In this document: one piece after another, positions 41,862 to 53,362 of the stretch
How the letters are laid out: each line of letters begins with the position of its first letter
How positions within the stretch are numbered: the stretch's first letter is position 1
Source of the DNA: Chloroflexota bacterium
Lineage (GTDB): Bacteria; Chloroflexota; Limnocylindria; Limnocylindrales; CSP1-4
Direction: 5' to 3'
Assembly (NCBI GenBank): GCA_016191425.1
Contig: JACPOR010000001.1
Location: 22,442-86,441 of the forward strand
DNA: 64,000 nucleotides
Notes under the pieces: model-generated
Seen by the model: the letters and a program-made list of their open reading frames with translations, nothing else
What the model was told of the DNA's origin: nothing
Database searches by the model: none
Made by a program: the position numbers and the translations under genes

Positions 41862-43178
41862 GTGCTCCCTCCCACAGTCGAGCCGTCACTCCGAACGCAT
41901 CCGGAGTGCATCAGCGTACACCGCCGCATGAGGGATCCGCCGGAACAGGACCGATCCGTGCGACCATACGAACCGATGCCGACCAGACGCGGAAGCCGCT
42001 CGTCGCACGTTCGGCCCCGCCCACCGAGCACGGGCCGCCCATCACCGCAGCGGGTTCGCATTCCCGCGCCGGACGCCTACCGGCTCAAGAAGGCCAGAGG
42101 CATCTCGAGCCGGCGACGCCGGATTCCGTTTCTCGCCCGGGTCCTCCTCGCCGCTGCGCTGGTCGTCCTCGGCGGCGCGGTCTTCCTGACCGCCGGTGGT
42201 GGCGTCGGTGCGCTCACCGGCGCGCTGTCCAGGTCCCTGTTCGGGTTCGTCGACAGGATCACGGCGACACCTGAGCCATCGGCGACCAGCCTCGTCGTGT
42301 CGGACGCCCCGATCATCGCCCTCCCCACCGAGCCGTATACGAACCAGCCAACGGCGGACCTGCAGGTCACGATCCCGGCGGTGGAGGTCGGCAACACCGG
42401 AGCCCGCCTCCGAATCTACCTGACGCTCGAGGGCCAGGCGCCGGCGCCGATCGCCGAGGTACCGATGGGCACCACCATCCGAATGGTCGTGCCGGTGGAG
42501 TTGACGCCCGGCCGAAACGACTTCAACGCGACGATCGTCGTCGGCGGCGTCGAATCGGAGCCGTCCCCCATCGTGACCTTCATCCTCGACACGGATCCAC
42601 CCGTCCTCGTGCTGGCGACTCCCAAGGAAGGCGCGACGGTCAACGCGGACAACGTGACCCTGAGCGGCACGACGCAGCCGAGAATGACTCTCCTCGCCCG
42701 CAATCAGGCCAACGGAACGTCGATCTCCGGGCAGACAGCGGCGGATGGCACCTTTGCGCTCAACCTGCCGCTCGAGAATGGCACGAACGCCATCCTCATG
42801 ACGGGTCGCGATCCGGCCGGCAACGTCGGCGAACTGACCGTCAACCTGGTCCGTGGGAGTGGCACACTCACCGCTTCCCTGACCAGCTCCGCCGCCCGGA
42901 TCTCCACCGCGTCGCTGCCGGTCTCGATCCAGCTCAGTGCCCTCGTCCTGGACCCTGACGGAGCCCCGCTCCAGGGCGCCGCGCTCACATTCACCCTCAC
43001 GGTGCCCGGGATCCCACCGATCTCGAAGGATGCCGTCTCCGGTATCGACGGCCGGGCGTCGTTCACGACGACCCTGCCGAGTGATGTGACGGTGGGTTCA
43101 GGCCTTGCGACGGTCCTCGTGGCAACGGCGGAATTCGGGACGACCTCGGCGCAGAAGACGATCACGATCGTCGAGTAG
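41862..43178 (+). CDS. Membrane-anchored protein with Ig-like extracellular domains
   Basis: TM FLARVLLAAALVVLGGAVFLTAGGGVGALTG; DTDPPVLVLATPKEGATVNADNVTLSGTTQPRMTLLARNQANG..; start probably internal (for example MRDPPEQ). Confidence 0.7.
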   Translation: MLPPTVEPSLRTHPECISVHRRMRDPPEQDRSVRPYEPMPTRRGSRSSHVRPRPPSTGRPSPQRVRIPAPDAYRLKKARGISSRRRRIPFLARVLLAAALVVLGGAVFLTAGGGVGALTGALSRSLFGFVDRITATPEPSATSLVVSDAPIIALPTEPYTNQPTADLQVTIPAVEVGNTGARLRIYLTLEGQAPAPIAEVPMGTTIRMVVPVELTPGRNDFNATIVVGGVESEPSPIVTFILDTDPPVLVLATPKEGATVNADNVTLSGTTQPRMTLLARNQANGTSISGQTAADGTFALNLPLENGTNAILMTGRDPAGNVGELTVNLVRGSGTLTASLTSSAARISTASLPVSIQLSALVLDPDGAPLQGAALTFTLTVPGIPPISKDAVSGIDGRASFTTTLPSDVTVGSGLATVLVATAEFGTTSAQKTITIVE

Positions 43179-43259
43179 CCGCTCCCCAATCCGATGTTGC
43201 CCCTCCGCCATCCGATGTTGCCGCTCGACGCGGCCGGCGTCGGCAGCTACCATGCGGCC

Positions 43260-43703
43260 ATGTCGATGTGGCGGTGCCCGCACTGCGCGACTCCCCAGGC
43301 AGAGACCGCTCGCTGCTGGGTCTGCCACAGATCTTCGACCACCTGTTCGACCTGCCGTCATTTCCGGCGCAGCGTGGCGGCGCAGGTGGGCTTCTGCGGC
43401 TTCGATCGGCGCCGGCTCCCGTTGGCTGGGACTGAGCAGCGCGGCTGCTGGGAAGCAGGCAACGTGCCGGCATTCGACTTCGTGTCGAGCATGGTTCCAA
43501 CCGTCTCGAGCCGACGTGACCGGGGCAACCACCGCCAGTTCGTACCGGTAGAGCTTGTCGGTGACCGCCTCGACGCCGCCGTCCCGACACCGATAGGCGG
43601 TCGGACGGTGCCGGCCGGAGCCGCCGTGGCGACGCCTTCCGACCTCGTGGTCAGCAATCGCTGGCAGGATCGCATGACGCTCTTCGGCGAGCTCGACCGC
43701 TAG
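43260..43703 (+). CDS. CXXC zinc-ribbon-like protein
   Basis: WRCPHCATPQAETARCWVCHRSSTTCSTCRHF. Confidence 0.6.
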   Translation: MSMWRCPHCATPQAETARCWVCHRSSTTCSTCRHFRRSVAAQVGFCGFDRRRLPLAGTEQRGCWEAGNVPAFDFVSSMVPTVSSRRDRGNHRQFVPVELVGDRLDAAVPTPIGGRTVPAGAAVATPSDLVVSNRWQDRMTLFGELDR

Positions 43704-43964: not shown

Positions 43965-45986
43965 CTAGGGGCAGGTTGCCGGCTTGGTGTCCACTGCGGT
44001 GAAGCTGATCGCCGTTCCGGGCGGGTGCAGGGAGCCGGCCGCCGGGCTCTGGAGGGAAACGAACCAGGCGTTGTCGGCCGGATCCGGGAACGTCGCGCCG
44101 ACCACGAATCCGTCGGCGACGACCTGCGCCCCGGCCGAGCCGACCGTCAGGCAGATGTAGTCGCCGACCGGGATCGGAGCGGGCGTCGGCGTGGGTGATG
44201 CCTCGGGCGGCGCAGTGGGGGTGATCTCGGGAGTCGGTGACGGCGTCGGGCTCGGCTCGATCGTGGGCGACGGTGACGGCGTCGGCTCCGGGCCCTTGGA
44301 GACGACGTAGGTGACGGCGAGGCCCTGGGTAACGACCAGACCAGGGCCGGGATCCTGGCTGATGATCGCCCCGGCCGGGATGAAGGCGTCGTACGCTTCC
44401 GTGCGGGTGGCGATGGTGAGCTTGGCCGCCGCGATCAGGTTGAGTGCTTCGGACTCCGTCTTGCCTCGCAGGTCGGGCACGCCGACAGTCTGATCCCCGA
44501 GGGCGAGGGTCAGCTTGATCGTGGTCCCGGCGCCGACGGCAGTGCCGTCGACAGGATCCTGGACGAGGACCGTGTCGTCCGGTTGGTCGCTCGGCTCGAA
44601 GGCCGCCCGGGCAACCTTGAGCCCGACACGCTCCGCGGCCTTCTTGGCCTCGCCGTAGGTCATGCCGACGAGGTTGGGGACCGCCACCTCCGCCGGCCCG
44701 GGCGTCGGATTCGTGTTGATGAGCCGAAAGATGAGGAAGGCAGCAAGCCCGAGAATGACGATCGCGAGGAGTCCGGAGATCCAGAGCCACGGGCTCGTCC
44801 CGTCATCGCGATCTCCGTCGTCTGGGTCGACATCCGGTTGCCGCCGTCCGGCACCAACCGGGCGGGGCCGTGGGGGATCGTCGGCACGAGCGTACGCATC
44901 GGGCGCATAGGGAACGCGCGCGCCGGGGTTCGAGCGGGCGATCCCGGCAATGGTGGGCCCACTGACGGGGGCACCGGGACCCGGCGCAACGGCCGCCGCC
45001 GCCGCCGCTCCACCGAGCGCCGCGAGCCCGGCAGCATTGGCTTCCCCGGCGGCAGGGGCGACCGCCGCTGAGGTGCCGCCAGGTGCCGCCGCAGCTGACG
45101 TGCTGCGCCGTGCCGCGGCGGCTGAAGCGCCGCCAGGTGCCGCCGCGATGGCGCCGGCCGACTGTTCGGCGAGAAAGCGATCGAGTGCGTCGGCCATGGC
45201 ACCCGCCGTCTCGAACCGGTCGGCGGGGTCCGTTGCCATCGCCTTCCGGCTGATCGCCTCGAGCACCGGCGGAACACCGCTCCGGATCGCGCTCGGACTC
45301 GGCACGGGCCCAGTCAGGCGGGCGGTGGCGATGGCGGCCGCGGAGTCACCCTCCCACGGGCGCCGGCCGGTGAGCAGTTCGTACAGGACGATCCCGAGGC
45401 TGTAGATGTCCGACGCGGGCGAGGCCAGCTCTCCACGCGCCTGCTCGGGGCTGAAATAATGGACCGAACCGAGCGTGGTCCCGGGCAGCGTCAGGGCCGC
45501 TTCCGCGATCGCCCTGGCAATCCCGAAGTCGGTGACCTTGACCCGGCCCTCACGGGTGACGAGGACGTTGCTGGGCTTGATGTCGCGGTGGACGAACCCA
45601 CTGGTGTGCGCGGCGGCAATGGCACGGGCGATCTGGGATGTCAGTCGCGCGGCCTGCCGAGCCGGGAGCGCGCCGCTGCGCCGGACGATCGAGGCAAGGT
45701 CCTCGCCGTCCACCAGCTCCATGATGATGAACGGCCCGGCCGGATCCGTGCCGTAGTCGTAGACCGCCACGACGCCCGGGTGGTTCAGGGACGCCGCGGA
45801 TTGCGCTTCCTGGCGAAATCGGGCGAAGAAGTCGGGGTCGCGCCCGTATTCGGGACGAAGCACCTTGACGGCGACGTCGCGCTCCAGCTGGGCGTCCCGG
45901 GCGCGGTAGATCGTGGCCATCCCGCCCTGTCCGAGCAGTTCGATCAGTCGGTATCGACCGCCGAGGATGGTGCCGATCTCTGCCAA
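43965..45986 (-). CDS. PASTA-domain serine/threonine protein kinase (PknB-like)
   Basis: GRYRLIELLGQGGMATIYRARDAQLERDVAVKVLRPE, HRDIKPSNVLV, DFGIARA; TM; PASTA repeats VPNLVGMTYGEAKKAAERVGLKV / VPDLRGKTESEALNLIAAAKL. Confidence 0.96.
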   Translation of the reverse strand: MAEIGTILGGRYRLIELLGQGGMATIYRARDAQLERDVAVKVLRPEYGRDPDFFARFRQEAQSAASLNHPGVVAVYDYGTDPAGPFIIMELVDGEDLASIVRRSGALPARQAARLTSQIARAIAAAHTSGFVHRDIKPSNVLVTREGRVKVTDFGIARAIAEAALTLPGTTLGSVHYFSPEQARGELASPASDIYSLGIVLYELLTGRRPWEGDSAAAIATARLTGPVPSPSAIRSGVPPVLEAISRKAMATDPADRFETAGAMADALDRFLAEQSAGAIAAAPGGASAAAARRSTSAAAAPGGTSAAVAPAAGEANAAGLAALGGAAAAAAVAPGPGAPVSGPTIAGIARSNPGARVPYAPDAYARADDPPRPRPVGAGRRQPDVDPDDGDRDDGTSPWLWISGLLAIVILGLAAFLIFRLINTNPTPGPAEVAVPNLVGMTYGEAKKAAERVGLKVARAAFEPSDQPDDTVLVQDPVDGTAVGAGTTIKLTLALGDQTVGVPDLRGKTESEALNLIAAAKLTIATRTEAYDAFIPAGAIISQDPGPGLVVTQGLAVTYVVSKGPEPTPSPSPTIEPSPTPSPTPEITPTAPPEASPTPTPAPIPVGDYICLTVGSAGAQVVADGFVVGATFPDPADNAWFVSLQSPAAGSLHPPGTAISFTAVDTKPATCP

Positions 45987-46069
45987 GGAATCCTCCGAGT
46001 GACGGAACCGGGCGCGCTGCCCGTCCGGATCGTAGCGTACGACGGTGCGTGGTTCGCCACGGTGACGGA

Positions 46070-46951
46070 CTACCCCTGCAGCTCGAGGCCCCGAAGATGG
46101 GCGCGGAGCTCCGCGGCGAGTTCCGGGCGCTCGAGCGCCAGCTCGATCGTTGCCTTCAGCCAGCCCATGGTGGTCCCGGCGTCGAAGCGGCGCCCTTCGA
46201 ACTCGTAGGCGAAGACGGATTGCTCCGCCATGAGTGCCTCGATGGCGTCCGTAAGCTGGATCTCGCCACCCGATCCGCGCTGCGTCTGCTCGAGCTTGTC
46301 GAAGATCTTCGGCGTCAGGACGTAGCGGCCGATGATGGCCAGGTTCGAAGGTGCCGTCCCGGGTTCCGGCTTCTCAACCACCTGGGTGATCTGGCGAAGG
46401 CGCGGGTCCTGCTCATCGGGCCCGGCACTCGTGCCCACGATGCCGTAGCGCGAGGTGTCTTCGGAGGGTACCTCGCTGACCGCCAGGATCGAACTGTGGG
46501 TCTGCTGATAAGCGTGGATCAGCTGCCCGATCGCGGGGCGCTCCGAGATCACCACATCGTCGGGGAGGAGGACCGCGAACGGCTCGTGGCCGATCAGGTC
46601 CTTGGCCATGAGGACGGCATGACCGAGACCCAGCTGCTCCTTCTGGCGAACGTAGGCGATCTGCGCGAGGTCGCTGATATGGCGGACCTGGCGGAGCTTT
46701 TCGATCTCGCCCTTTTCCTCGAGCAGGTGCTCCAGCTCGTAGGACAGGTCGAAGTGATCCTCGATCGCCCGCTTCTGGCTGGAGGTGACGATGATCACCT
46801 GCTCGATGCCGGCGGCGACTGCTTCCTCGACGGCGTACTGGATGATGGGCTTGTCGACGAGGGGCAGCATTTCCTTCGGCTGCGCCTTGGTCGCCGGGAG
46901 AAATCGGGTACCCCAGCCGGCTGCCGGGAAGACGGCTTTTCGGACGCGCAT
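46070..46951 (-). CDS. galU: UTP--glucose-1-phosphate uridylyltransferase
   Basis: MRVRKAVFPAAGWGTRFLPATKAQPKEMLPLVDKPIIQYAVEEAVAAGIEQVIIVTS. Confidence 0.96.
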   Translation of the reverse strand: MRVRKAVFPAAGWGTRFLPATKAQPKEMLPLVDKPIIQYAVEEAVAAGIEQVIIVTSSQKRAIEDHFDLSYELEHLLEEKGEIEKLRQVRHISDLAQIAYVRQKEQLGLGHAVLMAKDLIGHEPFAVLLPDDVVISERPAIGQLIHAYQQTHSSILAVSEVPSEDTSRYGIVGTSAGPDEQDPRLRQITQVVEKPEPGTAPSNLAIIGRYVLTPKIFDKLEQTQRGSGGEIQLTDAIEALMAEQSVFAYEFEGRRFDAGTTMGWLKATIELALERPELAAELRAHLRGLELQG

Positions 46952-47020
46952 GACACCCCTTGGGCGAATGGTGGGCAGTCCCGAGGATACCACCCGGGGG
47001 CGTTCGAACCCCTCGGAGCC

Positions 47021-47770
47021 TCAGTTCTCGAGTCGCTCCATGAAGGCGCGGACGGCGCTCGCGAAGGCATCCGGAAGGTCGAGCGGGGTCAGGTGGCCCG
47101 AGAGCGGGAGCACCCGTCGCGACACGTTCGGAATGTCGCGCAGAAACGATCGCTCGCCGAGCCGGAAGATGAGGTCGAGGCCGCCATTGATCACGAGCGT
47201 CGGCCCTCCATAGGCTCGAAGACGGTCGCGGAAACGGGTCTTCGTGAGCGATCGCACGGCGACGGCGCCACCTCGCGGCCAGTATCCCGCCGCCACGATC
47301 GGCTCGGCGATCTCCGCCGGATAGCGGCGCCGGAAGGCCCACGTGTTGAGCGCGTCGAGCTGGCGCTCGGGCGCCGCGACCAGGGCCCAGGCAAAGAGGC
47401 GAAACGCCAGGGCCGTGATCCCGGACGGCTCGGCCGTCGAGCCGGTCAGGACGAGGCCCCGAACCCGCCCCGGCGAGCGCGCGGCGGCAGTCATGGCGAC
47501 ATATCCGCCCAGAGACAGGCCGACGAGCACGGCCGGCCCGCCGTGCGCATCGTCGATCGCGGCATCGATGCAGTCGGCCGCCGCGTCGAGGGAGAACGGC
47601 TCGTCCGCCAGTGCACCGTGACCGGGCAGATCGACGCAAAGGCAACGATAGGTATCGGACAGGCGCAGGACGACGGCCCGCCAGGATGTCCGGGTGAGCC
47701 GTGTCCCGTGAATGAAGACGATCAGGGGGCCATCGTCGGGACCCGCGACCTCCCAGGCGCCGTTGGTCAT
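47021..47770 (-). CDS. Alpha/beta hydrolase
   Basis: LIVFIHGTRLTRTSWRAVV, CVDLPGHGAL, VLVGLSLGGYVAMTAA. Confidence 0.9.
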   Translation of the reverse strand: MTNGAWEVAGPDDGPLIVFIHGTRLTRTSWRAVVLRLSDTYRCLCVDLPGHGALADEPFSLDAAADCIDAAIDDAHGGPAVLVGLSLGGYVAMTAAARSPGRVRGLVLTGSTAEPSGITALAFRLFAWALVAAPERQLDALNTWAFRRRYPAEIAEPIVAAGYWPRGGAVAVRSLTKTRFRDRLRAYGGPTLVINGGLDLIFRLGERSFLRDIPNVSRRVLPLSGHLTPLDLPDAFASAVRAFMERLEN

Positions 47771-48825
47771 GATCCGGCGTCGCCGAGGCCGCCCGGCGCG
47801 ACGTCGCCGAGCGGCGTATCACTCGATGACATCGTTGCGGGCACCGGCCCGTCTGACCCCTCGAGGCTCGGCTCCGGCTCACCCGCCGGCAGCATGGCCG
47901 GCTCCGCGGGACGCGCCCGCTGGATCAGGACGGCCGCACTCAGGATCGCCACGCCGCCCGCCGCCTGGATCGGACCGATCGCCTCACCGAGGAACAGCGC
48001 CGCCAGCAGGACACCGACGAGGGGCTCGATGAGCATGAGGATCCCCGCCCGCACCGGGCCGATCCAGCGGATGCCGGCCAGGAACAAGGTGCTGGGAACG
48101 GCCGCGGCGAAGATGCCCCCGAACAGGAGCAGGCTGAGCAGGGCCGGCGTGCCGAACGGCAGCTCGAGGGACGAAGCTCCGTCACCCAGCACCGCGAGGA
48201 TGCCGGCGATCAGCGCCGACGCCGCGAGGATGAAGCCCATGGCCTGGTCGGTCGGCACGTGGCGGTACCCGCGACGGCTGACGAGGACGAACACGGCCTG
48301 GCTCGCCGCGGCCGAGAGGGCGAGCAAGACGCCGATCGGATCGATTCCCTCGGTCGTGCCCGCGGTGGGCCCACCCACGACGACAGCCACCATGCCACCC
48401 AGCGCAACCATGAGGGCAATGGCGCGTCGCCAATCCATCGGCTCCCAGCCGAGGAGGCTGGACACGCCGGTCACGATCGCCGGGTAGAGATAGAAGCCGA
48501 GCAGGACGATGGCCACCGGGACACGGGCGAACGCCAGGAACATTGCCATGTTCAGGGTGGCACCCATGAGCGCGGCGACGCCGAGCGAGGCTCGAGCCCG
48601 CACATCGAGCGAGCGCCAGCCCACCAGGCGAGCTCCGCGCCGGACGGTCATGACGACGACCAGGGCCATGGCGACGGCTCCGATCCCCGCTCGCCAGGTG
48701 ACGAAGGCGAACGGCGTCAGCCCGAAGCCGTAGGCCGTTCGCGAGAGAACCCCCAGCATCGCGAACAGGCTGGCGGCGACCGCGACGGTCAGGCTGCCGA
48801 AGAGCGGGCTCCGTCCTTGATCCAC
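47767..48825 (-). CDS. EamA/DMT family transporter
   Basis: About 10 TM; two EamA-like halves; FVTWRAGIGAVAMALVV, GPVRAGILMLIEPLVGVLLAALFLGEAIGPIQAAGG. Confidence 0.88.
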   Translation of the reverse strand: MDQGRSPLFGSLTVAVAASLFAMLGVLSRTAYGFGLTPFAFVTWRAGIGAVAMALVVVMTVRRGARLVGWRSLDVRARASLGVAALMGATLNMAMFLAFARVPVAIVLLGFYLYPAIVTGVSSLLGWEPMDWRRAIALMVALGGMVAVVVGGPTAGTTEGIDPIGVLLALSAAASQAVFVLVSRRGYRHVPTDQAMGFILAASALIAGILAVLGDGASSLELPFGTPALLSLLLFGGIFAAAVPSTLFLAGIRWIGPVRAGILMLIEPLVGVLLAALFLGEAIGPIQAAGGVAILSAAVLIQRARPAEPAMLPAGEPEPSLEGSDGPVPATMSSSDTPLGDVAPGGLGDAGS

Positions 48826-48844
48826 GGGTCCATGGTACGAGTCC

Positions 48845-49018
48845 GATCAGGCCGAGTCGGATCAGGCCGAGTCGGTTTCCCCGCTCGGGGCGTGTCTCAC
48901 CGAGCCGGATCGGATCGCGCAGGATCAGGCCGCGTCGGATCAGGCCGCGTCGGGTCAGGCCGCGTCGGGTCAGGCCGCGTCGGGTCCCCGCTCGCGGCGT
49001 GTCACACCGAGCCGGATC
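48845..49018. repeat. 15-bp tandem repeats (GATCAGGCCG(A/C)GTCG) with a duplicated copy of a gene 3' end
   Basis: Several GATCAGGCCGAGTCG / G(A/G)TCAGGCCGCGTCG units; CCCCGCTCG(G/C)GGCGTGTC(T/A)CACCGAGCCGGATC present at 48879-48911 and 48985-49017. Confidence 0.85.
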
Positions 49019-50019
49019 TGGGTGAACGGCACGCGGAACTGACGGAACACCTCGATGGACACGAGGAACCCGGCCAGGAGGAAGATGACGGCCACGAGCT
49101 TTGCCACGGCGAACGGCGCCGTGATCCCGAACCGGTTCAGCGTGTCCCCCGCAGAGGCCACGAAGGCCCCGACCGCGATGAGCAGGGTCGCCGGAACGCG
49201 ACTGTGGAGCCGGCCGGCCATCAGGGCCGTGACCGCGCCGGGCAGCGACGCGACGAAGTTCACCGTCAGCGCGACCGGCGCGATGAACAGGTTGAACAGG
49301 AACGCATCACCTGTCTGGTCGGCGTCGAGCGAATACGCGAGTACGCGCTTCTTGGGCATGAACACGTAGGCGGAGAAGAGCGCGCCGAACAGGAGCGCGA
49401 GGCCGCCCGTGACGTTCAGGAACGGCGTCAGGAGGCGGAGCGAACCCGGGAACAGGGCAGCGGTCGGCTGACCCGTCGACGGATCGAGGACGTAGCCCGG
49501 CGCCGGCAACGTCACCCCGACGCTCAGGACGACCGATGCGATCGTGGCACCGACAACCCCGATCGCCGCGATCCGGGGCCATCGCTCGTTCTGGAAGTAC
49601 GTCTCAACGGCGACGGCCAGCCCCAGGATCGTGGCGCTGATGAAGTAGACGATCGGCGTGGCGCCCGCCCCGGCATAGTCGAACTTCCGCTGGGTCAGGA
49701 ACGCGAAGAGTCCGCCGAGGAACAGGGTGAACGCGAACGCGTACCCGAAGCGCGTCCGATTGAGCAGGAACGCCGTCCCGAGACCGAGCCAGCCGGCCGT
49801 CCAGACCGCGCCGGTCAGGTACCAGGTGCGATACAGGGCCTCGTTCCAGCCGACTGCCGCCGCGATCGCCTCGGACCCGGACGCGATCCCGAAGAAGGCC
49901 ATGCCGACTGCCCAGACAAGCTGGAACGTCTGGCGCCGTTCCCGCCATTGATCGAGCAGGGCGAGCGCGAACCCGACAGCGAGGATGGCCGTGAGGCCGG
50001 GAATGAGCCAGTCGGTCAC
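48970..50019 (-). CDS. Multi-TM protein of unknown function (paralogue B)
   Basis: VTDWLIPGLTAILAVGFALALLDQWRERRQTFQLVWAVGMAFFGIASGSEAIAAAVGWNEALYRTWYLTGAVWTAGWLGLGTAFLL; GTG start overlaps upstream gene stop. Confidence 0.8.
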   Translation of the reverse strand: MTDWLIPGLTAILAVGFALALLDQWRERRQTFQLVWAVGMAFFGIASGSEAIAAAVGWNEALYRTWYLTGAVWTAGWLGLGTAFLLNRTRFGYAFAFTLFLGGLFAFLTQRKFDYAGAGATPIVYFISATILGLAVAVETYFQNERWPRIAAIGVVGATIASVVLSVGVTLPAPGYVLDPSTGQPTAALFPGSLRLLTPFLNVTGGLALLFGALFSAYVFMPKKRVLAYSLDADQTGDAFLFNLFIAPVALTVNFVASLPGAVTALMAGRLHSRVPATLLIAVGAFVASAGDTLNRFGITAPFAVAKLVAVIFLLAGFLVSIEVFRQFRVPFTQIRLGVTRRERGPDAA

Positions 50020-51041
50020 GCCTCGACGCCCCGGGAGCGGAGCACCCGCCCGGTGAACGGAATGCGGAACTCCCGGAAGACCTCGACCGAGACGAGGAAG
50101 CCAACGAACAGGAACAGGACGCCCAGGAATTCGCCGACGAAGAAGCCGCTGGTGGACCCGAAGCGGTTGGCGCCGCTGGTGATGGCCGGAATGAAGCCGC
50201 CGATCGCGATGAGGATGGTGGCTGGAACCCGGCTGTTGAGGCGGCCCGAGAGCAGGGCGACGATGGCGCCCGGGATCGAGGCCACGAAGTTGACGACGAT
50301 CGCGACCAGGGCCACGACGAGCCTCACCGGCGATCGGCTGCCGTTGCGCTCGTAGCGGATGACGCGCCGCTTCGGCATGAAGACGTAGGTCGAGTAGAGC
50401 GCCCCGAAGGTCAGGGCGAAGGCTCCGGTCACGTTGAAGAACGGGGTGAGCAGCCGGATCGATCCCGGGAAGAGGGTCCCGACGGGGATGTGGGTCGCCG
50501 GATCCACCGCGTAACCGGGCGCCGCCAGCGGGGTTGCCAGCACGAGGCCGAGCGACAGGACCGATCCACCGACGATGGCTCCGAACGCGAGCCAAACCCA
50601 GCGGTCGTCGCGTCGGGCGGTCATGACCACCACCCCGATCGCCAGGACCAGGGCTACGAGGCCGTAGACGTATGGCGCCCCACCTGATCCCGGATAGTCG
50701 TACCTGGCCCACGAGAGCACGGTGAACAACCCGGCCAGGGCCAGCGAAACGGCGAATGCATACCCGAAGCGCGTCTTCGCCAACAGGAAGACGGTGCCGA
50801 GTCCAAGCCATCCGGCCACCCAGATTGCCCCGATCAGATACCACGCCCGATAGAGGGGCTCGCTCCAACCCAGTGCGCCGCCCAGGAATTCCGTTCCCGC
50901 CGACAGGGCATACCAGAGCATCCCGATCGCCCAGATCAGCTGGTAGGGCCGACGGCGATCCCGCCACTGGTCGATGAGGAAGACGAAGAACACGAAGGAC
51001 AGGACGGACGAGCCAAGCGGCAGCACGACGTTGAAGTTCAT
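50016..51041 (-). CDS. Multi-TM protein of unknown function (paralogue A)
   Basis: SSVLSFVFFVFLIDQWRDRRRPYQLIWAIGMLWYALSAGTEFLGGALGWSEPLYRAWYLIGAIWVAGWLGLGTVFLL; collinear similarity to 48970-50019. Confidence 0.82.
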   Translation of the reverse strand: MNFNVVLPLGSSVLSFVFFVFLIDQWRDRRRPYQLIWAIGMLWYALSAGTEFLGGALGWSEPLYRAWYLIGAIWVAGWLGLGTVFLLAKTRFGYAFAVSLALAGLFTVLSWARYDYPGSGGAPYVYGLVALVLAIGVVVMTARRDDRWVWLAFGAIVGGSVLSLGLVLATPLAAPGYAVDPATHIPVGTLFPGSIRLLTPFFNVTGAFALTFGALYSTYVFMPKRRVIRYERNGSRSPVRLVVALVAIVVNFVASIPGAIVALLSGRLNSRVPATILIAIGGFIPAITSGANRFGSTSGFFVGEFLGVLFLFVGFLVSVEVFREFRIPFTGRVLRSRGVEA

Positions 51042-51718
51042 CCGGGGACCTCCCGAGGAGCGCGACGGGCGCTCATGTCTGCATGGACGGCGACGAGATG
51101 GAGCAGGAGCCGATCGAGGAGTGCGACGGCCTGCTCGAAGAGCGAGGCCAGCTGGGTCGCGTCGAGGGCACGTCGCCGGCCGAGCGAGCCGATTTCCGTC
51201 AGGAACGGATGGCGGGCCCGAACATAGACCGCCACGACGTCGGAACCGCTTGCGCCGGCAGCCGCGAGCCGGCGGGCGGTGATCTCGATGAGGCCGAGAG
51301 CCTCGGTCTCCCATCGCGCCCGGTCAACCGGACGCGAAGCGTCGAGATAGGCAAGGAGCACCGCCACGAGGCGGCGGCCGTCCGTCCGGAACTCGGCCCG
51401 CGTCTCCGCCTCGAGGCGGTCGATGGCCGGTGGGCCGCTGTCCGTTCGATAGGAACGGACGTAGGCCCGGTTCACCCGGTCGGAGGTGGCCCCAAGCGTC
51501 GAGAGCGGGCGCCGAACCGCGCGTCGGCTGACGGCGAGACGGTCGAGGTCGGCCCGGCTGAAGCGGCGATGACCTCCGGGCGTCGCGTAGGCGCGAACTC
51601 GACCATCGTCCGCCCACCGTCGCAGGGTGTCCGGATCCACGCCGAGCAGACGGCTCGCAGGACCCAGAGAGAGCCAGTCGCTGGGGGCTCCCGCCGGGAG
51701 GGACGCGGAACGAGGCAT
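51038..51718 (-). CDS. MerR/BldC-like HTH regulator with C-terminal helical domain
   Basis: LGPASRLLGVDPDTLRRWADDGRVRAYATPGGHRRFSRADLDRL; overlaps downstream membrane gene. Confidence 0.85.
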   Translation of the reverse strand: MPRSASLPAGAPSDWLSLGPASRLLGVDPDTLRRWADDGRVRAYATPGGHRRFSRADLDRLAVSRRAVRRPLSTLGATSDRVNRAYVRSYRTDSGPPAIDRLEAETRAEFRTDGRRLVAVLLAYLDASRPVDRARWETEALGLIEITARRLAAAGASGSDVVAVYVRARHPFLTEIGSLGRRRALDATQLASLFEQAVALLDRLLLHLVAVHADMSARRAPREVPG

Positions 51719-51894
51719 TCGGCTTCGACCTCCACACCAACTCCCGACCGGCACCCGGGGACGCGGGCGCGGTTCGGAATCCCGGTAAATCTCGGCATCG
51801 ATCCCGGTCCGGGAACCGGCGGAGAATACGAAGGCCGACGGGCCATGTCAACCACCAATGCTGGTGATCAGGCGGGCGTCCGCCGGAGGGCGTG

Positions 51895-52249
51895 TCAGGC
51901 CTGGACGAACTCGTGATCGTCGCGATGCAGGCCGTCGCAAAGGCCCCAGCGGAACTCGTCCCCCGGGATCGGGATCGGGCGCATGATCTCCCGCACCTCG
52001 CCGCGGCGGCAGAAGAGCCAGCCACGCCGGCGCATCCAGCTGCGGACGTGCGCCGGGTCCCCGTGGAACTGGAACGGCCCCGGGTTGAGGACCGGGCGTC
52101 CTGCCCAGGACACGGGCGTCTCGGCCGCCACGGTGTCCAGAATGTTCACCCGCCACGGCGTGCCGTAAATGATCTCCAGGCAGTCGTCGCAACGTAGAGC
52201 GACGTTGTCGGTGACGACCGTCGAGATCCGAATGCCCATGATCTCCATC
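51895..52249 (-). CDS. Hypothetical protein with CXXC motif
   Basis: MEIMGIRISTVVTDNVALRCDDCLEIIYGTPWRVNILDTVAAETPVSWAGRPVLNPGPFQFHGDPAHVRSWMRRRGWLFCRRGEVREIMRP. Confidence 0.6.
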
Positions 52250-52567: not shown

Positions 52568-53362
52568 CTACTTGAAGAACAGGAAGAGGTCCTGCGCGTA
52601 CAGGCCGGGGGTCACGAACACGTCGCTGCCGCTCCCACTGAGCGTAACGTCGACCGCGACCGTGTGGATACCGGGAGTCACCGCCCTGTTGACGTGGAAG
52701 GTGCCGTTGCCCACGCGGTTCGTGGTGAAGGTCCCGACGATGACACCCTGCCCGCTCGCGTAGGCGTCGAGGAAGAGCCAGACGTCGTAGGTTGTGTTAG
52801 GCGTCACTTTCTTGAGCTGGAGGGTCATCTCGAGGTTGTTCGGGTCGCCCGCGGAGCTGTTGAAAATGACAGCACCGACTGCCGATCCGTTCGGATAGGG
52901 AACGAGGTCCGTCTTCGCGTGTGAACTCGTGGTCACGAACGTCGCGAACCCGGAGGTTGTCGCCCAGGTCCCCGTTCGCGTCCCGGGAGCAACATCCGCC
53001 CATGTGCCAGATATCGACCCAGCCACGGCGATCGCGCCCGTGAAGTTGATCGTCAGCCCACAACTGGACCCCGTGTAGCTGATGGCATCGCCAACCACCG
53101 ATCCGCTCGAGATGGTGAAGAACGAGCAACCACCGCTGTAGTCGAGGGATGTGCCGGTGATCGACGTTCCAGATTGCACCAGGACGAGTGTTTCCGGATA
53201 GTCAACGCCGAGATACTTCACGTTGACGCTGTAGGTGCCCGTGACATTCCAGTACGAGCCTTCCGAGGCGAGGACCGTCGCCGGAAGGAGAGCCCCCGCC
53301 AGACCCAACGCCATGACGAGCGCACCTAACCGCTTGGCCGACACAGTTGCCTCCTTTGGCAT
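52568..53362 (-). CDS. Secreted hypothetical protein
   Basis: Signal peptide RLGALVMALGLAGALLPATVLASEG; beta-rich body. Confidence 0.65.
   Translation of the reverse strand: MPKEATVSAKRLGALVMALGLAGALLPATVLASEGSYWNVTGTYSVNVKYLGVDYPETLVLVQSGTSITGTSLDYSGGCSFFTISSGSVVGDAISYTGSSCGLTINFTGAIAVAGSISGTWADVAPGTRTGTWATTSGFATFVTTSSHAKTDLVPYPNGSAVGAVIFNSSAGDPNNLEMTLQLKKVTPNTTYDVWLFLDAYASGQGVIVGTFTTNRVGNGTFHVNRAVTPGIHTVAVDVTLSGSGSDVFVTPGLYAQDLFLFFK

Follow-up and report, generated by a model that had tools for sequence, protein, structure and literature searches.

An apparently undescribed module of a BldC-like regulator, its candidate operator and seven-helix membrane proteins in Chloroflexota

BldC of Streptomyces is a MerR-like regulator that consists of a stand-alone DNA-binding domain of 68 residues. 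Its targets are 9-bp direct repeats, which it occupies head-to-tail; GATTTCCCC is one of the natural sites (PMC5859096). The stressosome protein RsbR combines a non-heme globin-like N-terminal domain with a STAS domain. Bacterial seven-helix sensors include the sensor region of histidine kinases, HisKA_7TM (PF16927), the 7TMR-DISM domains and the LytS/BtsS receptors, of which BtsS binds pyruvate (PMC10653868). The locus described here lies in a window of 64,000 nucleotides (the whole stretch of DNA analysed) from a member of the Chloroflexota. It encodes a helix-turn-helix (HTH) regulator and two seven-helix (7TM) membrane proteins, 7TM-A and 7TM-B. Among open PMC papers none was found that joins BldC and Chloroflexi, and none that names the 7TM family. 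The features are as follows.

51895..52248, (-) strand: upstream neighbour, a Cys-containing protein of about 117 aa with paired cysteines, present at 26 loci
51823..51851, (-) strand: predicted sigma-70 promoter of the operon, TTGACA-17-TATTCT, near-consensus
51778..51797, (-) strand: candidate operator, two copies of a 10-bp direct repeat, TGCCGAGATT-TACCGGGATT; the -10 hexamer lies 25 nt upstream
51038..51718, (-) strand: HTH regulator gene, 226-238 aa depending on the start; alternative GTG start at 51754
HTH regulator, about residues 27-77 of the 238-aa form: N-terminal BldC-like winged HTH domain
HTH regulator, about residues 91-231 of the 238-aa form: C-terminal globin-like helical bundle
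50016..51041, (-) strand: membrane protein gene 7TM-A, 341 aa
48970..50019, (-) strand: membrane protein gene 7TM-B, 349 aa, paralogue of 7TM-A
47767-48825, (-) strand: EamA-like transporter gene, conserved downstream neighbour
47021-47770, (-) strand: alpha/beta hydrolase gene, conserved downstream neighbour
46070-46993, (-) strand: GalU-like nucleotidyltransferase gene, conserved downstream neighbour
43965-45986: PASTA Ser/Thr kinase gene, after the GalU-like gene

The names EamA and GalU are presumptive, given from a reading of the sequences. The three module genes have the coordinates proposed in a sequence-only reading of this DNA, to which it is added that all lie on the (-) strand and are transcribed in the order HTH, 7TM-A, 7TM-B. 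Both gene junctions are overlaps of 4 nt (ATGA for HTH/7TM-A, GTGA for 7TM-A/7TM-B). The ATG at 51718, which follows GGAGG, is the likelier start of the HTH gene; the GTG at 51754 gives the 238-aa form. 7TM-A and 7TM-B are 51% identical over 344 alignment columns (E 3e-120), that is, over their full length, and contain all the collinear motifs quoted earlier for both, so that their description as tandem paralogues stands. In dozens of other genomes each of the three frames is kept at 45-88% identity without internal stops, which, together with the wide occurrence of the 7TM proteins, excludes chance open reading frames.

One correction to the earlier reading is that the three-gene set is not typical. 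Only six genomes (G000, G002, G005, G013, G020, G034) yielded a complete HTH-A-B array, with G013 counted among them though a contig end cuts its B gene. Outside these six, the HTH gene is accompanied by one 7TM gene or the 7TM gene stands alone. Single 7TM genes being the norm, an A+B heterodimer cannot, to judge from gene content, be a general feature. In the 7TM tree a well-supported clade holds 7TM-B and has members mainly at the GalU locus; A-type genes fall outside it. GC-rich tandem repeat arrays with 15-bp units occur at 48925-48986 and 48838-48873, at or just past the end of 7TM-B.

The conserved GalU locus, absent from the sequence-only reading together with the promoter, the operator and the sensor-like C-terminal domain of the regulator, has the order small Cys-rich protein, [HTH], 7TM, [EamA], [alpha/beta hydrolase], GalU, PASTA kinase. 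The GalU/PASTA kinase/EamA/hydrolase neighbourhood extends across families f1 and f2 and is not shared in f3, f4, f22 and more distant members. The GalU-PASTA kinase pair (43965-46993, (-)), with divergent genes beyond it (41862-43703, (+)), is conserved from f2 genomes of about 1 Mb to the window's family. The protein of 51895-52248 (-) had no match in Pfam or NCBIfam, and its gene is not under the operator in the window. Farther upstream of the module, 52568-53362 (-) encodes a probable secreted protein of 264 aa without a Pfam match. The sampled f2 genomes of about 1 Mb (about 1.1 Mb) keep the 7TM gene and lack the HTH gene. Because such streamlined genomes retain 7TM without HTH and operator, the function of the 7TM protein does not need the regulator.

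The regulator is BldC-like, as had been read from the sequence. Its domain matches are HTH_17 (3.9e-10) and MerR_1 (2.5e-8); NCBIfam HTH_BldC is matched at 8e-13 with 48 bits, below the cut-off of 77 bits, and BldC itself (PDB 6amk) at 1.7e-5. In the AlphaFold2 model (pLDDT 89.5) the HTH domain superposes by Foldseek on BldC-DNA structures with TMt 0.82-0.85 over the domain. Thus the DNA-binding domain is shared with Streptomyces BldC both by sequence and by a near-identical fold (TMt 0.85), and the His and Gly of the BldC GGHRR wing are conserved. The window protein differs in its additional globin-like domain and in the 10-bp period of its candidate target. The C-terminal bundle superposes on the RsbR N-domain (3zta) with TMt 0.72, 2.9 A over 141 columns, probability 0.99 and E 0.54, and superposes less well on other globin-like sensors. 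The RsbRD_N family (PF14361) gave weak matches, below the Pfam cut-off, in 2 of 14 HTH relatives (best 0.0063). Since the Foldseek E-values are weak, the bundle is described as resembling the RsbR stressosome domain in modelled fold, and nothing more is claimed. Unlike in RsbR, it is fused to a BldC-like domain and lacks STAS; no stressosome signs were found for the window protein. A heme-binding globin was considered and rejected, as no conserved histidine is present in the bundle. Of 400 genomes of the phylum, 223 encode a protein of this architecture, in most cases not beside a 7TM gene. In the HTH tree the 7TM-adjacent regulators sit in separate clades (the window's family, f22, in which one member is labelled Dormibacteraeota, and f83), with three changes of the adjacency label, at least two of them forced by well-supported branches.

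7TM-A homologues are present in 58 of 61 related genomes, including all 25 of high quality, which makes the family core in this class. Across the phylum it was found in 197 of 400 sampled genomes. The window proteins had no credible match in Pfam and NCBIfam and none above cut-off, in keeping with the earlier remark that neither belongs to a named family. Distant members are for the most part shorter, at about 230-255 aa, with a clean seven-helix core. In 7TM-A this core is extended by an inserted transmembrane hairpin that follows TM4 and by a hydrophobic helix, kinked or re-entrant, ahead of TM6; both window proteins carry these two insertions relative to the short members. The charge distribution suggests an outside N-terminus and an inside C-terminus. 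Invariant in 18 diverse members are W37, Y68, G71, L79, G82, L86, N203, G206, A214, R271, A279, G281 and G314, and near the outer ends of TM2, TM3, TM5 and TM6 there are many conserved polar positions. The AlphaFold2 model (mean pLDDT 90.7, pTM 0.88) found no PDB match with E <= 0.001 in Foldseek, and no significant one among viral models. Searching PDB sequences with a profile of the 7TM family likewise gave no match. Matches to 7TM receptors, rhodopsin and adiponectin-receptor-like proteins were insignificant (TM < 0.5), and no kinship with them is claimed. No conserved neighbour was seen in the gene context of distant members.

Among the described seven-helix sensors, HisKA_7TM comes closest. 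Short core members match it collinearly over the whole domain, the best at 5.3e-6 and 26.9 bits, short of the Pfam cut-off of 28.6, and a genome search with HisKA_7TM independently retrieved a core member (G076:C9, 2e-4). In hhalign the core profile aligned to HisKA_7TM with 25% probability and E 7.7e-4, against 0.2% and E 0.32 for an EamA control. The window proteins, with their two extra insertions, differ: they gave no HisKA_7TM match in the Pfam search, and the profile of long members (A4) showed no similarity (2% probability). No fusion to a histidine kinase was found, the sampled matches being standalone open frames. The sequence comparison is suggestive of kinship between the 7TM core and HisKA_7TM, short of membership. 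LytS/BtsS and 7TMR-DISM share with the family the general idea of a bacterial 7TM receptor; no sequence match to them was obtained beyond E 0.16 for a single family member with 7TMR-DISM_7TM, and no output domain is present. Of the channel, sensor or lipid-interacting role suggested earlier, the sensor part thus gains weak support from the distant similarity of core members to HisKA_7TM; the channel and lipid parts gained no support. Our best guess for the 7TM proteins is a receptor-like role, as free-standing membrane proteins distantly related to the sensor domain HisKA_7TM.

The promoter TTGACA-17-TATTCT is the only promoter-like site in 3.9 kb (0.1 expected in shuffles). About 25 nt after such a near-consensus promoter, HTH-7TM operons of the lineage carry two copies of the consensus NRCCNAGRTT; the pattern has a single match in the window, with 0.01 expected. 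A TTGAC-17/18 promoter is found in 21 of 23 aligned relatives, and the gap between the -10 hexamer and the operator is 23-25 nt in 19 of 21. The operator is present in 24 of 25 lineage HTH-7TM operons, a count that is partly by construction as the weight matrix was built from the same operons, versus 0 of 38 same-locus 7TM genes without HTH; the latter count, the shuffled control and the unlinked operator cases are not by construction. At >= 18 bits there were 53 matches in 3.66 million positions versus 1 in shuffled DNA. Operator columns average 1.37 bits and the flanks 0.32-0.39 bits. The stretch GATTTACC in the window is close to the BldC site quoted above; the candidate target, like that of BldC, is a direct repeat, and its AT-rich cores are of the GATT type seen in the smeA-sffA site. 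By analogy, the regulator may bind its repeats head-to-tail in the manner of BldC.

The operator also occurs beyond the operon. Of the 39 lone 7TM genes that lie elsewhere than at the GalU locus, 12 have it upstream, two of these in reversed orientation. In genome G136 it precedes both the HTH gene (C1) and the 7TM gene (C26), which are located on separate contigs. A search of 151 class genomes gave 38 sites at <= 1 mismatch versus 3 for the backward-read pattern. Thirty of the 38 were fetched as loci and classified: 17 precede HTH+7TM, 5 precede 7TM alone and 8 precede or lie in other genes, among them parA-like, small 2-TM and prmC-like genes. The parA-like genes belong to two f3 genomes, where (L239, L240) the motif stands 78 nt before the gene, close after a -10-like hexamer. 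For the small 2-TM family the motif was seen upstream in two f4 genomes, with a weaker site in G136 (genes L241:1575-1787, L246:1417-1644, L212:2162-2368); one weak Cyt_c_ox_IV match (0.0076) was obtained for it, and a cytochrome-oxidase link is not claimed. In the window's family the regulon thus holds little besides the module, and in other families it is somewhat broader. The strong part of the present reading is that co-occurrence of operator and HTH, together with the unlinked cases, indicates a conserved regulatory HTH-7TM link, in cis and in trans. The earlier proposal that the HTH protein regulates the membrane proteins is thereby strongly supported, by an operator predicted from sequence.

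We regard the HTH-7TM genes as a small regulatory module, composed of a regulator with its own operator and of receptor-like 7TM proteins, with a probability of about 0.62. Gene structure, family assignments, operator conservation and operator co-occurrence with HTH support this at the sequence level. Binding, repression, the direction of control, signal sensing and 7TM function we infer along the following lines. The HTH protein would be a one-component regulator whose BldC-type domain reads the two 10-bp repeats and whose RsbR-type globin-like domain probably serves cytoplasmic signal sensing or oligomerisation. It would bind the repeats cooperatively, just inside the transcribed region of its own operon, and in the window's lineage repress that operon until the globin-like domain receives a signal; repression is predicted from the position of the operator, about +17 to +37 downstream of a near-consensus promoter. 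The regulator would thereby set the amount of one or two co-translated 7TM proteins. A regulator of this kind may, in related families, control an unlinked 7TM gene in trans. The operator lies after the promoter in the window's family, apparently upstream in f4, and is reversed in f3 and f22, with promoters in these other families assigned by eye; repression is therefore not generalisable, and where the repeats are apparently upstream of the promoter, activation is possible.

Another arrangement would make the 7TM proteins sensors that bind or release the HTH protein (membrane sequestration), A and B perhaps as a heterodimer, with the operator serving autoregulation. Translational coupling, the repeated HTH-7TM adjacency, the distant likeness between the 7TM core and a sensor domain, and the near-confinement of the operator (<= 1 mismatch) to the module in the window's family are consistent with it. 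We consider it improbable: the regulator already has a sensor-like domain of its own, many genomes, including the f2 genomes of about 1 Mb that were sampled, keep 7TM without HTH, and with lone 7TM genes as the norm the pair is not general. Also doubtful in our view is a membrane-coupled signalling module of Chloroflexota in which a transcription factor of the BldC/globin type would be under the direct control of standalone 7TM receptors, sometimes two paralogues, with no kinase involved. Somewhat more credible, though still unlikely, is an envelope or metabolic membrane protein (a transporter, or a partner of GalU/PASTA kinase) with HTH as local expression regulator. The neighbourhood conserved across f1 and f2 speaks for this, and retention of 7TM in HTH-less streamlined genomes fits a constitutive function; family and fold matches to transporters or enzymes are both absent, including any significant PDB match to a known transporter or channel fold, and f3, f4, f22 and more distant members lack the shared neighbourhood.

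That adjacency and operator are incidental, the genes being inherited neighbours and the repeats serving another regulator, is very improbable. Single-lineage inheritance does account for part of the synteny, and the BldC-like family is widespread and mostly not beside 7TM; but absence of the operator tracks absence of HTH, the operator is kept in trans arrangements, and the flanks diverged while the repeats did not.

The genes form a real, conserved regulator-membrane protein module, apparently new to description, in which the regulatory link is the strong part; a receptor-like or an envelope/transport role are the main choices for the 7TM proteins. An unnamed 7TM family, core in a class of uncultured bacteria, thereby gains a regulator, an operator and a promoter, and the conditions under which it is used can be put to the test. 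In the regulator, DNA binding of the BldC type is combined with a domain that resembles a stressosome sensor, and the operator gives a hint of target choice by BldC-like proteins outside actinobacteria. If the 7TM proteins are indeed receptors, the module would be a kinase-free receptor module.
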